IMG/VR virus record: IMGVR_UViG_3300046003_005507
Location: 1 to 35,261 of that record
Direction: 5' to 3' (one strand)
DNA: 35,261 bases
From: a virus
Made by a program: the position numbers and the translations under genes
Notes under the pieces: model-generated
Told to the model about the DNA's origin: nothing
Seen by the model: the letters and a program-made list of their open reading frames with translations, nothing else
Database searches by the model: none
Part shown: piece by piece, positions 30,254 to 35,120 of the stretch
Position numbering within the stretch: the first letter of the stretch is position 1
Layout of the letters: every line of letters begins with the position of its first letter

Positions 30254-32593
30254 ATGGCTAACGAGCGCATAGTATCACCCGGAGTATTTACCAGAGAAAG
30301 GGATTTAAGTTTCCTTACTCAAGGTATTAGTGAAATCGGGGCAGCATTTATTGGGCCGACACCAAAAGGCCCAGCGTTTATCCCGACCATAGTACGTGGT
30401 CAACAAGAATATGTTACCAGATTCGGTGAAGCAGATACCAATCATTACACAGGATTGGCGGCAAAAAATTATCTCCGTGAATCTGCCGTGGCAACGGTGG
30501 TTCGTGTATTAGGAACTACTGGATATGATCCGGCTACCACGAAGTCGGTGGTAATTTTTGCCACAGGCTCGGCAGGTAAAAAAGTATACGCGGTATTACA
30601 TCCAAGTAGTACAGGCAATACACTTACAAATGCATTAGCAGCGGGAACTACGAGTAGTTTTAGTTTAGTGGTATCTGGATCAGGCGGCGCAATTATCAGT
30701 GCAAGTGCATTAAGTCCAACGGAAGGATTGTCCAATTCATTCCAAGATTATTTTTCTGCCACGCCAACCACAACACAAAATTCATATGTATATGCAATTT
30801 TCCCAGAAGCAGTTACTGCATCACTAGGAATTAACATTACATTCCAAGCAGTAACATCCAGTACTGTGTTGAATTTTAACGGATCAAGTTATGGTAATTA
30901 CAACCACGCTAGCACGCCGTATATTCAATCACAAACATTGGGTGGTAGTAAATTAGATCTATTTAAGATTAATACACTTAGTGACGGCAATTCTGCAAAC
31001 AAGGAAATTAAAGTATCATTTGCAAACATGAAGCCAAGTGGTGATGCTGAATATAATTTTGGTACCTTTACAATGTTCGTTCGTCGATATGATGATACGG
31101 ATGCACGGTCAGAGATATTAGAACAATTTGATAATGTAAATCTTGATCCAGATAGTCCAAATTATATTGCACGAATCATTGGCAATAGTGCACCAACCGA
31201 AGATACCGTAACGGGTGAAATGTACTATCAAGGTGATTTCCCGAATAATTCACAGTATATTTGGGTAGAAATGACAGACTCGCAGATTCCAGAAACAGCA
31301 CTTCCGTTTGGATTTGCGGCATATTCATCTACGATTTCTGCAGCATCATCAGAATTAAGTGCTCCCGATTATGTTACAAGTCGTTGGCTTGATGGGGCAG
31401 TTGAAGGATATACTACCCAATCAATCGACAAGAAATACTTTTATGGTTGGAATTTTGACGCAGCATATGAAACCAATAATTCTTACCTTGGACCAATTCC
31501 ATCGGGATCATTAACTGTTGGTACGGTATTTAATCTTGAAGACATTGTGGATGTACCGAATGGAGCAGTACCAAAGGCAATCTCATTGACGGACGCAGAT
31601 AGTTTCATCTATCGTAAGTTCTCAGTGGCATTCCAAGGCGGATTCGATGGGTTAAATCCTGCACGTGACATTAATATGGGTGGCGATATCGTTGCTACCA
31701 ATAGTCAAGGATTCAACTTAGCAACGTCAGTATCGGCGGGATCGGTATCCTATAAGAAAGCATTGGATGCTATTAGTAATCCCGATCAGTTTGATTTTAA
31801 CTTGTTAGTACTTCCTGGTGTAATTTATGAACTACATTCATATGTTGCAAACTATGCACTAACATTGTGTGAAGATCGTGGTGATGCATTCTACATCATG
31901 GATACCACACAATTAACGGCAACACTGGCAACAGCAACAACAAAGGCCGCTGAAATTGACAGTAGTTACGCAGCAACCTACTATCCGTGGCTACGAGTCA
32001 TTGATACGAATACCAACAAGTTAATTTATGTTCCACCTTCAGTGATTCTTCCAGAAATCTACGCATACAACGATAATGTTGCAGCAGAATGGTTTGCACC
32101 CGCTGGATTAAATCGTGGTGGCATTGCAAGTGCAGTCGGTGTCAAGGTTCGCTTACCACAAGCAAGTCGTGATACACTCTACGAAGGAAAGGTTAACCCA
32201 ATTGCACAGTTCCCAGGACAAGGCATCTGTGTGTGGGGTCAGAAAACATTACAACGCCGTTCATCAGCATTGGATCGTGTGAACGTCCGTCGTTTGTTAA
32301 TTGCGGTGAAGAAGTATATTGCAAGTTCGTCACGTTATTTAGTGTTCGAACAGAATGTTGAAGCAACGCGAAATCGTTTCCTCAACATTGTTAACCCGTA
32401 CCTTGCAAGTGTACAAGAACGTTCTGGATTGTACGCATTCCGTGTGGTCATGGACGACACAAACAACACACCTGATGTGATTGATAGAAATATCCTCTAC
32501 GGACAACTCTATCTACAACCCACACGAACAGCAGAATTCATTGTTCTTGACTTCAATGTTCTCCCGACAGGTGCGCTATTTCCTACTGCGTAA
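30254..32593 (+). CDS. gp18: Contractile tail sheath protein (gp18-like)
   Basis: The 779-residue protein begins ANERIVSPGVFTRERDLSFL, the typical gp18 start, with GAAFIGPTPKGPAF soon after. The C-terminal third carries the conserved sheath core: YYPWLRVIDTNTNKLIYVPPS, AAEWFAPAGLNRGG, YEGKVNPIAQFPGQGICVWG, RRSSALDRVNVRRLL and the final strand pair before PTGALFPTA. The C-terminal core builds the interlocking mesh that contracts, while the variable Ser/Thr/Ala-rich middle forms outward domains. It is longer than T4 gp18 (659 residues). A GGAG site precedes the ATG. Gene order is unusual: sheath and tube lie downstream of capsid rather than between terminase and portal as in T4. Confidence 0.97.
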   Translation: MANERIVSPGVFTRERDLSFLTQGISEIGAAFIGPTPKGPAFIPTIVRGQQEYVTRFGEADTNHYTGLAAKNYLRESAVATVVRVLGTTGYDPATTKSVVIFATGSAGKKVYAVLHPSSTGNTLTNALAAGTTSSFSLVVSGSGGAIISASALSPTEGLSNSFQDYFSATPTTTQNSYVYAIFPEAVTASLGINITFQAVTSSTVLNFNGSSYGNYNHASTPYIQSQTLGGSKLDLFKINTLSDGNSANKEIKVSFANMKPSGDAEYNFGTFTMFVRRYDDTDARSEILEQFDNVNLDPDSPNYIARIIGNSAPTEDTVTGEMYYQGDFPNNSQYIWVEMTDSQIPETALPFGFAAYSSTISAASSELSAPDYVTSRWLDGAVEGYTTQSIDKKYFYGWNFDAAYETNNSYLGPIPSGSLTVGTVFNLEDIVDVPNGAVPKAISLTDADSFIYRKFSVAFQGGFDGLNPARDINMGGDIVATNSQGFNLATSVSAGSVSYKKALDAISNPDQFDFNLLVLPGVIYELHSYVANYALTLCEDRGDAFYIMDTTQLTATLATATTKAAEIDSSYAATYYPWLRVIDTNTNKLIYVPPSVILPEIYAYNDNVAAEWFAPAGLNRGGIASAVGVKVRLPQASRDTLYEGKVNPIAQFPGQGICVWGQKTLQRRSSALDRVNVRRLLIAVKKYIASSSRYLVFEQNVEATRNRFLNIVNPYLASVQERSGLYAFRVVMDDTNNTPDVIDRNILYGQLYLQPTRTAEFIVLDFNVLPTGALFPTA

Positions 32594-32658: not shown

Positions 32659-32694
32659 CTCCGTGATACTTATTAGTAAATGGGTATCACGGAG
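32659..32694 (+). promoter_or_regulatory. RBS-sequestering hairpin with embedded late-promoter-like box (first endonuclease)
   Basis: Perfect arms CTCCGTGATAC (32659-32669) and GTATCACGGAG (32684-32694) enclose a 14-base loop. The right arm contains four of the five bases of the GGAGG ribosome site (32691-32695) of the gene starting at 32701, so full-length readthrough transcripts would hide it. The left arm and loop contain TACTTATT in the context GATACTTATTAGTA, similar to the GATATTTATAGTA promoter at 27410. A transcript starting in the loop would lack the left arm and be translatable. Confidence 0.75.
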
Positions 32695-32700
32695 GTCAAA

Positions 32701-33573
32701 ATGACTAAAAAATGTTCGGAATTAAGAAATTGTGAAGTATGTAACACGGATTATGTGGCAAAGATAGTTACGGCAAGATTTTGTTCTCTGAAGTGTATGT
32801 ATGTTTGGAGGTCTACTCTTCCAAAAAAACAACGACAAAAGAAACAACTTGTTATCAAAATATTAGGTACTGGAAACTGCTTATATTGCGGGAAATTGTT
32901 TGATATACTGAAAAATAGAAAAACTTTATGTTCCCGACGATGTATGTATGACTGGAGAAAATCTCAGCATAAAGAAACAGTTCCTTGTCTAACCTGTGGT
33001 AAAGAGTTTGATAAGTACAAGAAAAGTAAAACTCGGTATTGTTCAGATATATGTGCAAAAACTTCCGTTGAGAAAAAAGAAAAACTTCGCAGGTGGGGAT
33101 TGAGTAAGAATAATCACTGGAATAATTCAACCATTCAATCTAAAGTAAGAACTACTAAGAAAGAACGATACGGTGATGAAAATTATAATAATACTGATAA
33201 GCAAATAAAAACTGCATTTGAAAAATACGGAACATATACGATGTGGTTGGGAAAATCTCAAGGAAAACGCATAAGTAATCCACAAAGAAAAGTTTATGAA
33301 AATGTATTAAAAGAACACACGGATGCGTTATTAGAACATTGGTTACGAGATGCACAAAAGAGTGTAGATGTTTACATTCCTTCAACCAAAACTATTATTG
33401 AGGTATATGGTACATATTGGCACTGTGACCCTAGAAAATATGCAGGTAATTACTACAATAAATCAATGAAGTTAAATGCACAAGAAATATGGGAACGAGA
33501 TACAAAAAGAAAAAATTTTCTAGAGTCACTTGGATATACAGTAAAAGTTTTGTGGGAGTTGGATGTAAAATAA
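32701..33573 (+). CDS. Free-standing homing endonuclease, Vsr-like (EDxHD type), with three zinc modules
   Basis: An in-frame ATG at 32680 lies in the hairpin loop; the start at 32701 is preferred because GGAGG sits five bases before it, giving 290 residues. The N-terminal 120 residues hold three repeated Cys4 modules (C11/C14/C28/C32, C60/C63/C77/C81, C96/C99/C114/C118), likely zinc-binding DNA readers. A linker with KKERYGDENYNNTDK follows, and the C-terminal domain has VDVYIPSTKTIIEVYGTYWH (D223, E234, H241) plus ERDTKRKNFLESLGYTVKVLWE. This is the Vsr/PD-(D/E)XK-like nuclease core of phage EDxHD homing endonucleases such as I-Bth0305I. It interrupts the sheath-tube gene pair. Family is clear; the cleavage site, probably in tail genes of a related phage, is not. 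Confidence 0.85.
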   Translation: MTKKCSELRNCEVCNTDYVAKIVTARFCSLKCMYVWRSTLPKKQRQKKQLVIKILGTGNCLYCGKLFDILKNRKTLCSRRCMYDWRKSQHKETVPCLTCGKEFDKYKKSKTRYCSDICAKTSVEKKEKLRRWGLSKNNHWNNSTIQSKVRTTKKERYGDENYNNTDKQIKTAFEKYGTYTMWLGKSQGKRISNPQRKVYENVLKEHTDALLEHWLRDAQKSVDVYIPSTKTIIEVYGTYWHCDPRKYAGNYYNKSMKLNAQEIWERDTKRKNFLESLGYTVKVLWELDVK

Positions 33574-33583
33574 ATAATATACA

Positions 33584-33591
33584 TATTTATA
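33584..33591 (+). promoter_or_regulatory. Putative late promoter box TATTTATA before the tail tube gene
   Basis: TATTTATA ends 27 bases before the ATG at 33618, after the endonuclease stop, so the tube gene keeps its own promoter despite the inserted endonuclease. A CGGAG ribosome site (33606-33610) follows. Confidence 0.55.
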
Positions 33592-33617
33592 GTTAGATAT
33601 CCTTTCGGAGATTATAC

Positions 33618-34106
33618 ATGGCAAACTTAGTATCAGAACAAGAACTTTTCTTTACCGCGTTCGAACCAAAAATGAAGAATCGGTTCGTCCTATATATGGA
33701 TGGAATCCCTTCATATATTGTAAAAAAAGTCGCACGTCCAACACTTAAGCAAGATTCAAAACCATTAGACCATATTAATCTCCAACGATATGTGAAAGGC
33801 AAGACCACATGGGGAAGTATGCAAATGGAATTATACGATCCTATTGTTCCATCGGGTGCACAAGCCGTTATGGAATGGGTGCGTTTACATCACGAATCGG
33901 TCACGGGTCGTGACGGATATCTTGAATTCTACAAGAAAGATTTAACGCTCAATGTTCTTGGACCTGTTGGCGATAAGGTTGAAGAATGGATTATCAAGGG
34001 CGCACAAATTACTGAAGTTAACTTTGGTGAACTTGATTGGAGTACAGATGATGTAATGTCATTTACACTTACCGTGCAAATGGATTATTGTGTTTTAAAT
34101 TTTTAA
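33618..34106 (+). CDS. gp19: Tail tube protein (gp19-like)
   Basis: The 162-residue product equals T4 gp19 in length (163). It has FEPKMKNRFVLYMDGIPSYIV, VARPTLKQDSKPLDHINLQR, YVKGKTTWGSMQMELYDPIVPSGAQAVMEW, and the last segment DVMSFTLTVQMDYCVLNF, all conserved in gp19. It polymerises into the inner tube inside the sheath. The gene is bracketed by two homing endonuclease genes, which is where such elements often insert without harming the essential gene. Identity is very secure. Confidence 0.96.
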   Translation: MANLVSEQELFFTAFEPKMKNRFVLYMDGIPSYIVKKVARPTLKQDSKPLDHINLQRYVKGKTTWGSMQMELYDPIVPSGAQAVMEWVRLHHESVTGRDGYLEFYKKDLTLNVLGPVGDKVEEWIIKGAQITEVNFGELDWSTDDVMSFTLTVQMDYCVLNF

Positions 34107-34128
34107 ACTACATCTTGATTATTGTGTT
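34083..34128 (+). repeat. Direct repeat GATTATTGTGTT at and after the end of the tube gene
   Basis: GATTATTGTGTT occurs at 34083-34094, inside the last codons of the tube gene, and again at 34117-34128 in the spacer, 34 bases apart. It may be a remnant of a duplicated gene end created when the downstream endonuclease inserted, or coincidence. Confidence 0.35.
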
Positions 34129-34163
34129 CTTTGGTTAGAATCACATAATTTAGTTGTATTTTC

Positions 34164-34210
34164 AATCTCCTCTGTGATATATATAGTAAACGTATATCAC
34201 AGAGGAGATT
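34164..34210 (+). promoter_or_regulatory. RBS-sequestering hairpin with embedded late-promoter-like box (second endonuclease)
   Basis: Perfect 18-base arms AATCTCCTCTGTGATATA (34164-34181) and TATATCACAGAGGAGATT (34193-34210) flank an 11-base loop. The right arm contains the GAGGAG ribosome site (34202-34207) of the gene starting at 34214, so long transcripts would hide it. TATATATA (34178-34185), in the context GATATATATAGTA, sits at the top of the left arm and in the loop. A start about six bases further on would fall in the loop and free the site. Confidence 0.85.
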
Positions 34211-34213
34211 TTT

Positions 34214-35086
34214 ATGTTTATTTGTAAGCGTTGTGGAAATGAATATCCTTCATATAATTCATTGTCAAAACACACTAGAACTGCATACAAATTAAGCGGA
34301 GAAGCATTATATCGTGAATATTATTGTATAAAAGAAGTTCCCACTTGTAAATGTGGTTGTAAAACTCCTACCAAGTGGCGTATTGACCGTGGATATGGAG
34401 AATATGTCAATGGTCATAATTCAAAAGGAGCTTCAAACTCAATGTTTGGAAAAACTCATAATAAAACTGCACGTGAGAATATTTCTAAGAAACGTAAAGA
34501 AAAATTTGCTAATGGTGAATATAATTTTATCAATTCTGTAAAATGGGCAGAGATTCAAAAAGAAGTTTGGAAGCGAGACGGTTATAAAGAAAAAATGAAA
34601 GCGGCTCGTGAAAAATCGGGATGGCGTGAAAAAATATCAAAAAAACTATCGGGTGAAAATAATCCATTTTATGGTAAAAAACGACCTGAACACAGTAAAT
34701 TGATGAAATCCCCTGAAATGGTAAAAAAAATATTTGCTAAACGCAGTATGACTGATATTGAACAAATAGTTACAAAAAAACTAGACGAACATAATATTCA
34801 ATATTACCATCAATTTTTCCTTACCGACGATGACGATACCTTTGCATATGACTTTAAAATTAAAGGACATCCAATATTAATTGAAGTAGACGGTGATTAT
34901 TGGCACGGCGGCCCTGGTGTAGATATACATGTTCCGTTTTTAACGGAGATACAAGAAAAAGATGTATTGAAAACAAAGATAGCCCAACAACACGGTTATA
35001 CGGTATTACGTTTTTGGGGTAGTGATGTTAAATCGCGCCCCTTCTGGGTTATCCAACAATTATTATCTCACATCAATCCTTCATAA
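34214..35086 (+). CDS. Free-standing homing endonuclease, Vsr-like, with NUMOD3-type DNA-binding repeats
   Basis: The 290-residue protein opens with a Cys2-His2/Cys-rich finger (C4, C7, H20; then C45, C47, C49). Two NUMOD3-like repeats follow, NSMFGKTHNKTARENISKK and SGENNPFYGKKRPEHSK, as found in DNA-binding parts of GIY-YIG and HNH homing enzymes. The C-terminal domain has D213 in AYDFKIKGHPILIEVDGDYWH with E224, D226 and H231, then KTKIAQQHGYTVLRFWGSDV, the Vsr-like EDxHD nuclease pattern shared with the gene at 32701. The N-terminal modules of the two proteins differ, so they share a catalytic domain but read different sites. It starts six bases after GAGGAG. It probably inserted next to the tube gene by homing. 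Confidence 0.87.
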   Translation: MFICKRCGNEYPSYNSLSKHTRTAYKLSGEALYREYYCIKEVPTCKCGCKTPTKWRIDRGYGEYVNGHNSKGASNSMFGKTHNKTARENISKKRKEKFANGEYNFINSVKWAEIQKEVWKRDGYKEKMKAAREKSGWREKISKKLSGENNPFYGKKRPEHSKLMKSPEMVKKIFAKRSMTDIEQIVTKKLDEHNIQYYHQFFLTDDDDTFAYDFKIKGHPILIEVDGDYWHGGPGVDIHVPFLTEIQEKDVLKTKIAQQHGYTVLRFWGSDVKSRPFWVIQQLLSHINPS

Positions 35087-35112: not shown

Positions 35113-35120
35113 TATTTATA
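35113..35120 (+). promoter_or_regulatory. Putative late promoter box TATTTATA before the last gene
   Basis: The octamer in the context TTGATATTTATAGAAGA ends 29 bases before the ATG at 35149, repeating the spacing of the other boxes. Confidence 0.55.

Follow-up and report, generated by a model that had tools for sequence, protein, structure and literature searches.

Hairpin leaders with promoter-like boxes at two endonuclease genes in the tail cluster of a T4-superfamily phage

Two free-standing endonuclease genes among the tail genes

The window, that is, the whole 35,261-nucleotide stretch analyzed (IMG/VR record IMGVR_UViG_3300046003_005507), is a metagenome fragment of a T4-superfamily myovirus in which major capsid, portal, terminase, sheath, and tube genes are present. 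By major capsid protein its nearest cultured relatives are Flavobacterium phage immuto (55%) and Microcystis phage Mel-JY01 (52%). The tail cluster is split by two free-standing endonuclease genes, HEG-A between the sheath and tube genes and HEG-B behind the tube gene. All features described lie on the plus strand. The gp18-like tail sheath gene (30254–32593; phrog_23 tail sheath, 1.7e-73; Pfam Phage_sheath_1) is upstream of HEG-A (32701–33573), a homing-endonuclease-like gene encoding 290 aa (phrog_1271 HNH endonuclease, 2.7e-15; phrog_3339 homing endonuclease). The gp19-like tail tube gene (33618–34106; phrog_4542 tail tube protein, 1.5e-24) is followed by HEG-B (34214–35086), which encodes a zinc finger, NUMOD3, and an EDxHD/Vsr-like nuclease (Pfam NUMOD3, 8.7e-10; DUF559, 7.9e-06). 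The AlphaFold model of HEG-B is weak except in the two end domains, and the best fold match of this low-confidence model (overall pLDDT 57.5) was the catalytic domain of I-Bth0305I (TM-score 0.74 on target, E 1.1e-3). Only weak matches to HEG-B were found in cultured phages and none in genome contigs. The neighbors of the two nuclease genes, sheath and tube, are late structural genes rather than members of an early or middle transcription unit.

When relatives were sought with the tube protein as query, 80 related loci were obtained. HEG-A was missing from the sheath/tube site in most relatives, and relatives having empty HEG-B sites were also found, the pattern of site-specific insertion. In the gp18-gp19 gap of HEG-less relatives (e.g., L005 and L020) there is a conserved GTGGAGGG...CCCTCCAC hairpin without a U-run, which is missing where HEG-A is present.

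Hairpins and promoter-like boxes at the ribosome sites

Hairpin H1 (32659–32694; arms 32659–32669 and 32684–32694) has 11 perfect base pairs, or 16 with G-U pairs, and the same stem is found in relative L056. The Shine-Dalgarno (SD) sequence of HEG-A, GGAGG (32691–32695), lies mostly within the right arm. The HEG-A start codon is most likely that at 32701; an in-frame ATG at 32680 sits in the H1 loop. Hairpin H2 (34164–34210; arms 34164–34181 and 34193–34210) has 18 perfect base pairs and occupies the position that the terminator of the tube gene has in relatives. The SD sequence in its right arm, GAGGAG, is followed by a U5 run (the two spanning 34202–34213) that is both terminator tract and spacer between SD and start codon, a pattern kept in HEG-B homologues. 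The first-pass annotation had reported 11 and 18 bp perfect hairpins at the two ribosome sites, and both sets of arms were confirmed. It had also named folding of both leaders as a check. The calculated folding energy was −25.4 kcal/mol for H1 (z −8.1) and −27.8 kcal/mol for H2 (z −8.4), and 0/200 shuffles were equally stable in either case. On read-through RNA the SD of the two leaders is paired with a probability of 0.97–1.00 (0.97 for HEG-A), whereas on RNAs started in the left arm, loop, or right arm the value falls to 0.41–0.59 (about 0.48 for loop-started HEG-A RNA). The SD on loop-started RNA is about half open, which is comparable to the ordinary tube leader with its paired probability of 0.67.

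The box in question is a version of TATTTATA, the octamer that ranks first or joint first for enrichment upstream of genes on the coding strand of related contigs, where its distance to the start codon is mostly 29–45 nt (median 34.5 nt). TATTTATA is the reverse complement of the T4 late box TATAAATA; the T4 late promoter TATAAATA itself is nearly absent from the coding strand at promoter distance. Positions were ranked (70,478 in all) with a weight matrix made from five other contigs only, the window being left out, and the matrix placed the gene promoters of the window first. Canonical copies lie 34 nt before the tube start (33584–33591; rank 3, 15.8 bits), where the box is kept in nearly all relatives, and before the next structural gene after HEG-B (35113–35120; rank 1, 19.4 bits). 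A late-promoter-like box had been claimed for the left arm and loop of each endonuclease hairpin, and such boxes were found: TACTTATT in H1 (32667–32674), 34 nt before ATG 32701 (rank 21, 8.9 bits), and TATATATA (GATATATATAG) in H2 (34178–34185), 36 nt before ATG 34214 (rank 57, 5.8 bits), a form accepted as a variant after the fact. The best pre-gene sites score 12–19 bits. Given these ranks and a spacing like that of the structural genes, the two boxes are plausible, but weak, candidate promoters. The H2 box is kept in L017 and L052, and L024 and L170 have TATGTATA instead. A search of eight related contigs for Sigma70_r2 (PF04542) gave no match, and hence no late sigma factor was identified in them; psbA (PF00124) was likewise absent. 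Scans of the window for sigma-70 promoters and terminators gave nothing above chance, the terminator scan having missed H2 because of its long loop.

This anatomy is that of T4-type leaders, in which a hairpin silences the read-through RNA made at early and middle times (PMC2988022; PMC3014915). A translational timing switch of that type would leave early and middle read-through RNA untranslated, and a late promoter inside the hairpin would give RNA without the left arm, such that the endonucleases are made only late. The same arrangement is seen at I-TevI, segB, Aeh1 mobE, and T4 e and soc (PMC2988022; PMC3014915), and the SD that is closed on long RNA and more open on loop-started RNA, together with the resemblance of the box to that before structural genes, fits such a switch. 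However, the genes upstream encode structural proteins and are themselves late, and the same box stands before the tube gene, so that read-through RNA would also be late. The earlier proposal that endonuclease synthesis is limited to late infection is therefore doubtful, and timing is not an obvious benefit.

The HEG-B family and the tube-gene terminator

The first-pass annotation overlooked that the HEG-B start codon directly follows the U5 run, which gives H2 the form of an intrinsic terminator: the 18 bp stem runs directly into UUUUU, and the hairpin lies after gp19, a place kept in relatives both with and without HEG-B. HEG-less relatives have a hairpin plus U-run behind the tube gene, several with the same stem motif (e.g., AAACTCCTTCGTGATATGTTATCGTATCACGGAGGAGTTTT in L055), and a left-arm scar remains in L004–L006. 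In the pair L023 (HEG-B absent) and L024 (HEG-B present), the hairpin and U5 run are found in both and a box-like loop only in L024. The HEG-less relatives and the L023/L024 pair argue that H2 is the tube terminator, with the HEG-B start codon placed at the end of its U-run.

A profile scan gave 80 loci having HEG-B homologues, many at 27–35% identity, and in 76 of these a tail-tube gene lies directly upstream. A hairpin ending close to the ATG was present in 35/44 non-redundant HEG-B leaders, 31 of them with a U-run of at least four, and the distance from 3' arm to start codon is 2–9 nt in the listed cases. As a control, 849 called genes (1,509 starts) from the same loci plus five large contigs were searched; the other hairpin plus U-run matches were eight further HEG-B members and three weak others. 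Of the 164 intrinsic-terminator-like hairpins in all loci together, 39 abut an ATG, and all but two of these (37) belong to the HEG-B family. Many loops of the family (up to 23 nt) are longer than those of typical terminators, and many stems are AU-rich. The hairpin also abuts the start codon in HEG-B homologues lacking a clear SD sequence; some of these phages may infect Bacteroidota, where SD pairing is little used. Hence, of the claim that the hairpins bury ribosome sites, the burial of the SD stands for both genes, but for HEG-B the conserved core is an intrinsic terminator abutting the start codon.

Boxes of the form TA[TC]TTAT[AT] or TATATTTG occur in the left arm or loop of 26/37 HEG-B-family terminators versus 7/125 other terminators. 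In shuffles, which ignore pairing constraints, the mean count was 2.7 and the maximum 8, with 0/1,000 reaching 26; the box and hairpin counts are not independent because the family members are related. With variants included, 32/37 family leaders have a box, the exceptions being L292, L296, L299, L300, and L305. A characteristic TTG spacing belongs to the Bacteroidota sigma-A promoter form. A subset of the family has TATATTTG with TTG 19–20 nt upstream, which is the sigma-A layout; the Bacteroidota sigma-A −7 consensus has been published (PMC9723704). RNA starts were predicted from the published position for the −7 box and, by analogy, from a T4-like position for TATTTATA. The predicted RNAs retain no left-arm base in any boxed family leader, and 19 predicted starts fall in the loop versus 12 expected under the null, a modest excess.

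These data bear on the timing switch in two further ways, since many family members have a host sigma-A-like promoter instead, and the U-run with only 2–9 nt to the ATG points to termination. H1, which lacks a U-run, fits timing better than it fits termination. Overall we consider the timing switch unlikely. H2 could also be only a tube terminator kept for the tube gene, with HEG-B inserted behind it, poorly expressed by read-through, and the boxes chance matches in AT-rich loops. HEG-less relatives do keep a terminator there, the boxes of the window are weak, and five family leaders have none. Against this stand the excess of boxes over shuffled sequences and over other terminators, the constant TTG-N19/20-TATATTTG spacing, the joint absence of box and gene from L023, and H1, which is no terminator and yet has hairpin and box. 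We judge this explanation quite improbable.

In the five close HEG-B leaders 94% of cells are paired and 6/18 pairs are changed on both sides, and the geometry is kept at 27–35% identity, in agreement with the selection on the hairpins that had been suggested. The GTGATA/TATCAC stem core is kept among the close relatives. One might thus take the inverted repeat for a DNA element, either an autorepression operator or part of the homing site, its RNA folding being incidental; I-TevI does autorepress at an operator overlapping its late promoter (PMC2988022). Among distant homologues, however, the stem sequence is wholly different whereas the stem, U-run, and ATG spacing stay, which argues for selection on structure and layout and makes a DNA element highly improbable. 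The proteins vary in another manner: in comparisons of L017 and L296 with the window, the N-terminal part of HEG-B (zinc finger, CKCGC, DRGYGEY) is conserved and the C-terminal nuclease part differs, which suggests that domains have been exchanged behind a target-recognition part that stays constant.

H1 was said to differ from H2 in stem sequence, but the motif CTCCGTGATA...TATCACGGAG is common to H1 and the H2 hairpins of relatives L017, L052, and L170. The H1 stem is followed by GGAGGTCAAAATG rather than by a U-run and thus does not have the form of an intrinsic terminator. Leaders of HEG-A homologues have a hairpin in only 3/48 cases and a U-run in none, and we rejected a general rule for all phage homing endonucleases on these counts. 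The stem motif and box of H1 are those of the HEG-B/tube terminators in the same phage group. Because HEG-A homologues lack the hairpin, H1 looks recruited from that source, and the simplest account would be that HEG-A took up a copy of the HEG-B/tube terminator element. The two endonuclease genes are therefore not clearly two independent inventions of one switch.

Hairpins of related design were seen elsewhere. Three phages (L196, L207, and L216, on contigs G001–G003) have a gene of unknown family encoding 133–134 aa (ME..TQLLCTF...), and in all three a hairpin with a ATATTTATTA-like box in its left arm ends two bases before the ATG. Ordinary structural genes in L068, L069, L074, and L077, behind the tube gene, and in L200 are preceded by terminator-like hairpins whose loop holds a TACTTAT box. 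The promoter-in-hairpin layout is not confined to endonucleases. CGTGATA-N-TATCACG hairpins were also sought in public viral contigs; the matches were mostly unrelated ones, plus three loci. In L187 and L194, from a GC-rich unrelated phage, a GIY-YIG-like gene behind a capsid-like gene has the ribosome-site hairpin CCCTCCGTGATACG...TATCACGGAGGG, and in L165 (2433–2930), from an unrelated phage, an HNH-like gene has a CGTGATA...TATCACGGAGG hairpin over its ribosome site. We do not claim a stem element shared across nuclease families, since the search pattern itself selected that sequence.

A proposed terminator with an embedded promoter, and known systems

The reading we favor, drawn from sequence comparison, is that H2 is probably a terminator with an embedded promoter, which would block read-through expression and give the nuclease its own weak transcript. 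The tail-tube terminator would have been turned into the HEG-B leader, with its 3' arm as SD sequence, its U-run as spacer, and the start codon next. RNA from the tube gene would fold the full H2 hairpin, and because this forms, most tube RNA would end there and the remaining read-through RNA would have a closed ribosome site. The weak TATTTATA copy in the left arm and loop is proposed to start a separate RNA in the loop, which, the left arm being gone, would neither terminate nor hide its ribosome site. Terminator plus embedded promoter would therefore insulate the nuclease from strong structural-gene transcription and make it a low-level unit of its own. We infer box firing, termination at H2, the translation block, and the copying of H1 from the tube terminator; the benefit would be that the very strong structural transcripts do not include the nuclease, a view supported by the terminator form of H2. 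H1 would be a derived form before HEG-A, with the same stem motif and box, and since it has no U-run it probably acts only as a translation block with an internal promoter, the classical block being the more likely role there.

In its broadest form the proposal stands, in our estimate, at about even chances. The tube-associated endonuclease family would keep an element of ~50 bases across very diverse phages in which the terminator of the target overlaps with both the promoter and the ribosome site of the nuclease. The kind of promoter would change (phage late-like or Bacteroidota host-type) and its place in the left arm and loop would stay, such that the victim's terminator becomes the on/off leader of the nuclease. 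If so, free-standing selfish genes could persist inside strongly expressed structural clusters by using the resident terminator as both shield and ribosome site, with a small promoter hidden in the loop. The design is compact and gives a sequence signature, a terminator abutting the ATG with a box in its loop, for finding such genes.

Control of homing endonucleases by ribosome-site hairpins with internal late promoters is already known (I-TevI, segB, and mobE). The open-licence papers searched did not describe a fusion of the target gene's terminator with promoter and ribosome site that is preserved through a tube-associated family of nucleases. HEG-B appears to share the fold of its nuclease domain with the EDxHD homing endonuclease I-Bth0305I, according to the model, but it differs in its N-terminal part, with zinc finger and NUMOD3, and in being a free-standing gene behind tube genes. 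T4 mobE and segF have internal intrinsic terminators able to limit endonuclease transcripts (PMC2988022); those are situated within the 5' part of the coding sequence, whereas here the terminator would be the leader itself and carry the promoter. The leaders of T4 e, soc, and 49 likewise place a hairpin over the ribosome site, and the late promoter of e is located within the DNA that encodes the 5' strand (PMC3014915), but these are phage genes and no terminator role has been described for them. The closest likeness is to I-TevI, I-TevII, I-TevIII, T4 segB, and Aeromonas phage Aeh1 mobE, homing endonuclease genes with the SD in a stable hairpin and a promoter placed to give a short RNA without the 5' arm (PMC2988022, section 12 and Fig. 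5). The leaders described here likewise sequester the SD in a stable hairpin on long RNA, and the box and its spacing fit a promoter RNA lacking the 5' arm, its start position being predicted. The I-TevI, segB, and mobE leaders lie on early or middle gene transcripts and act in timing, whereas those of the window lie in a late structural cluster. In further contrast to them, the HEG-B hairpin has the terminator form, with a U-run at the start codon, and its layout is preserved throughout a family of nucleases found at a single target gene.
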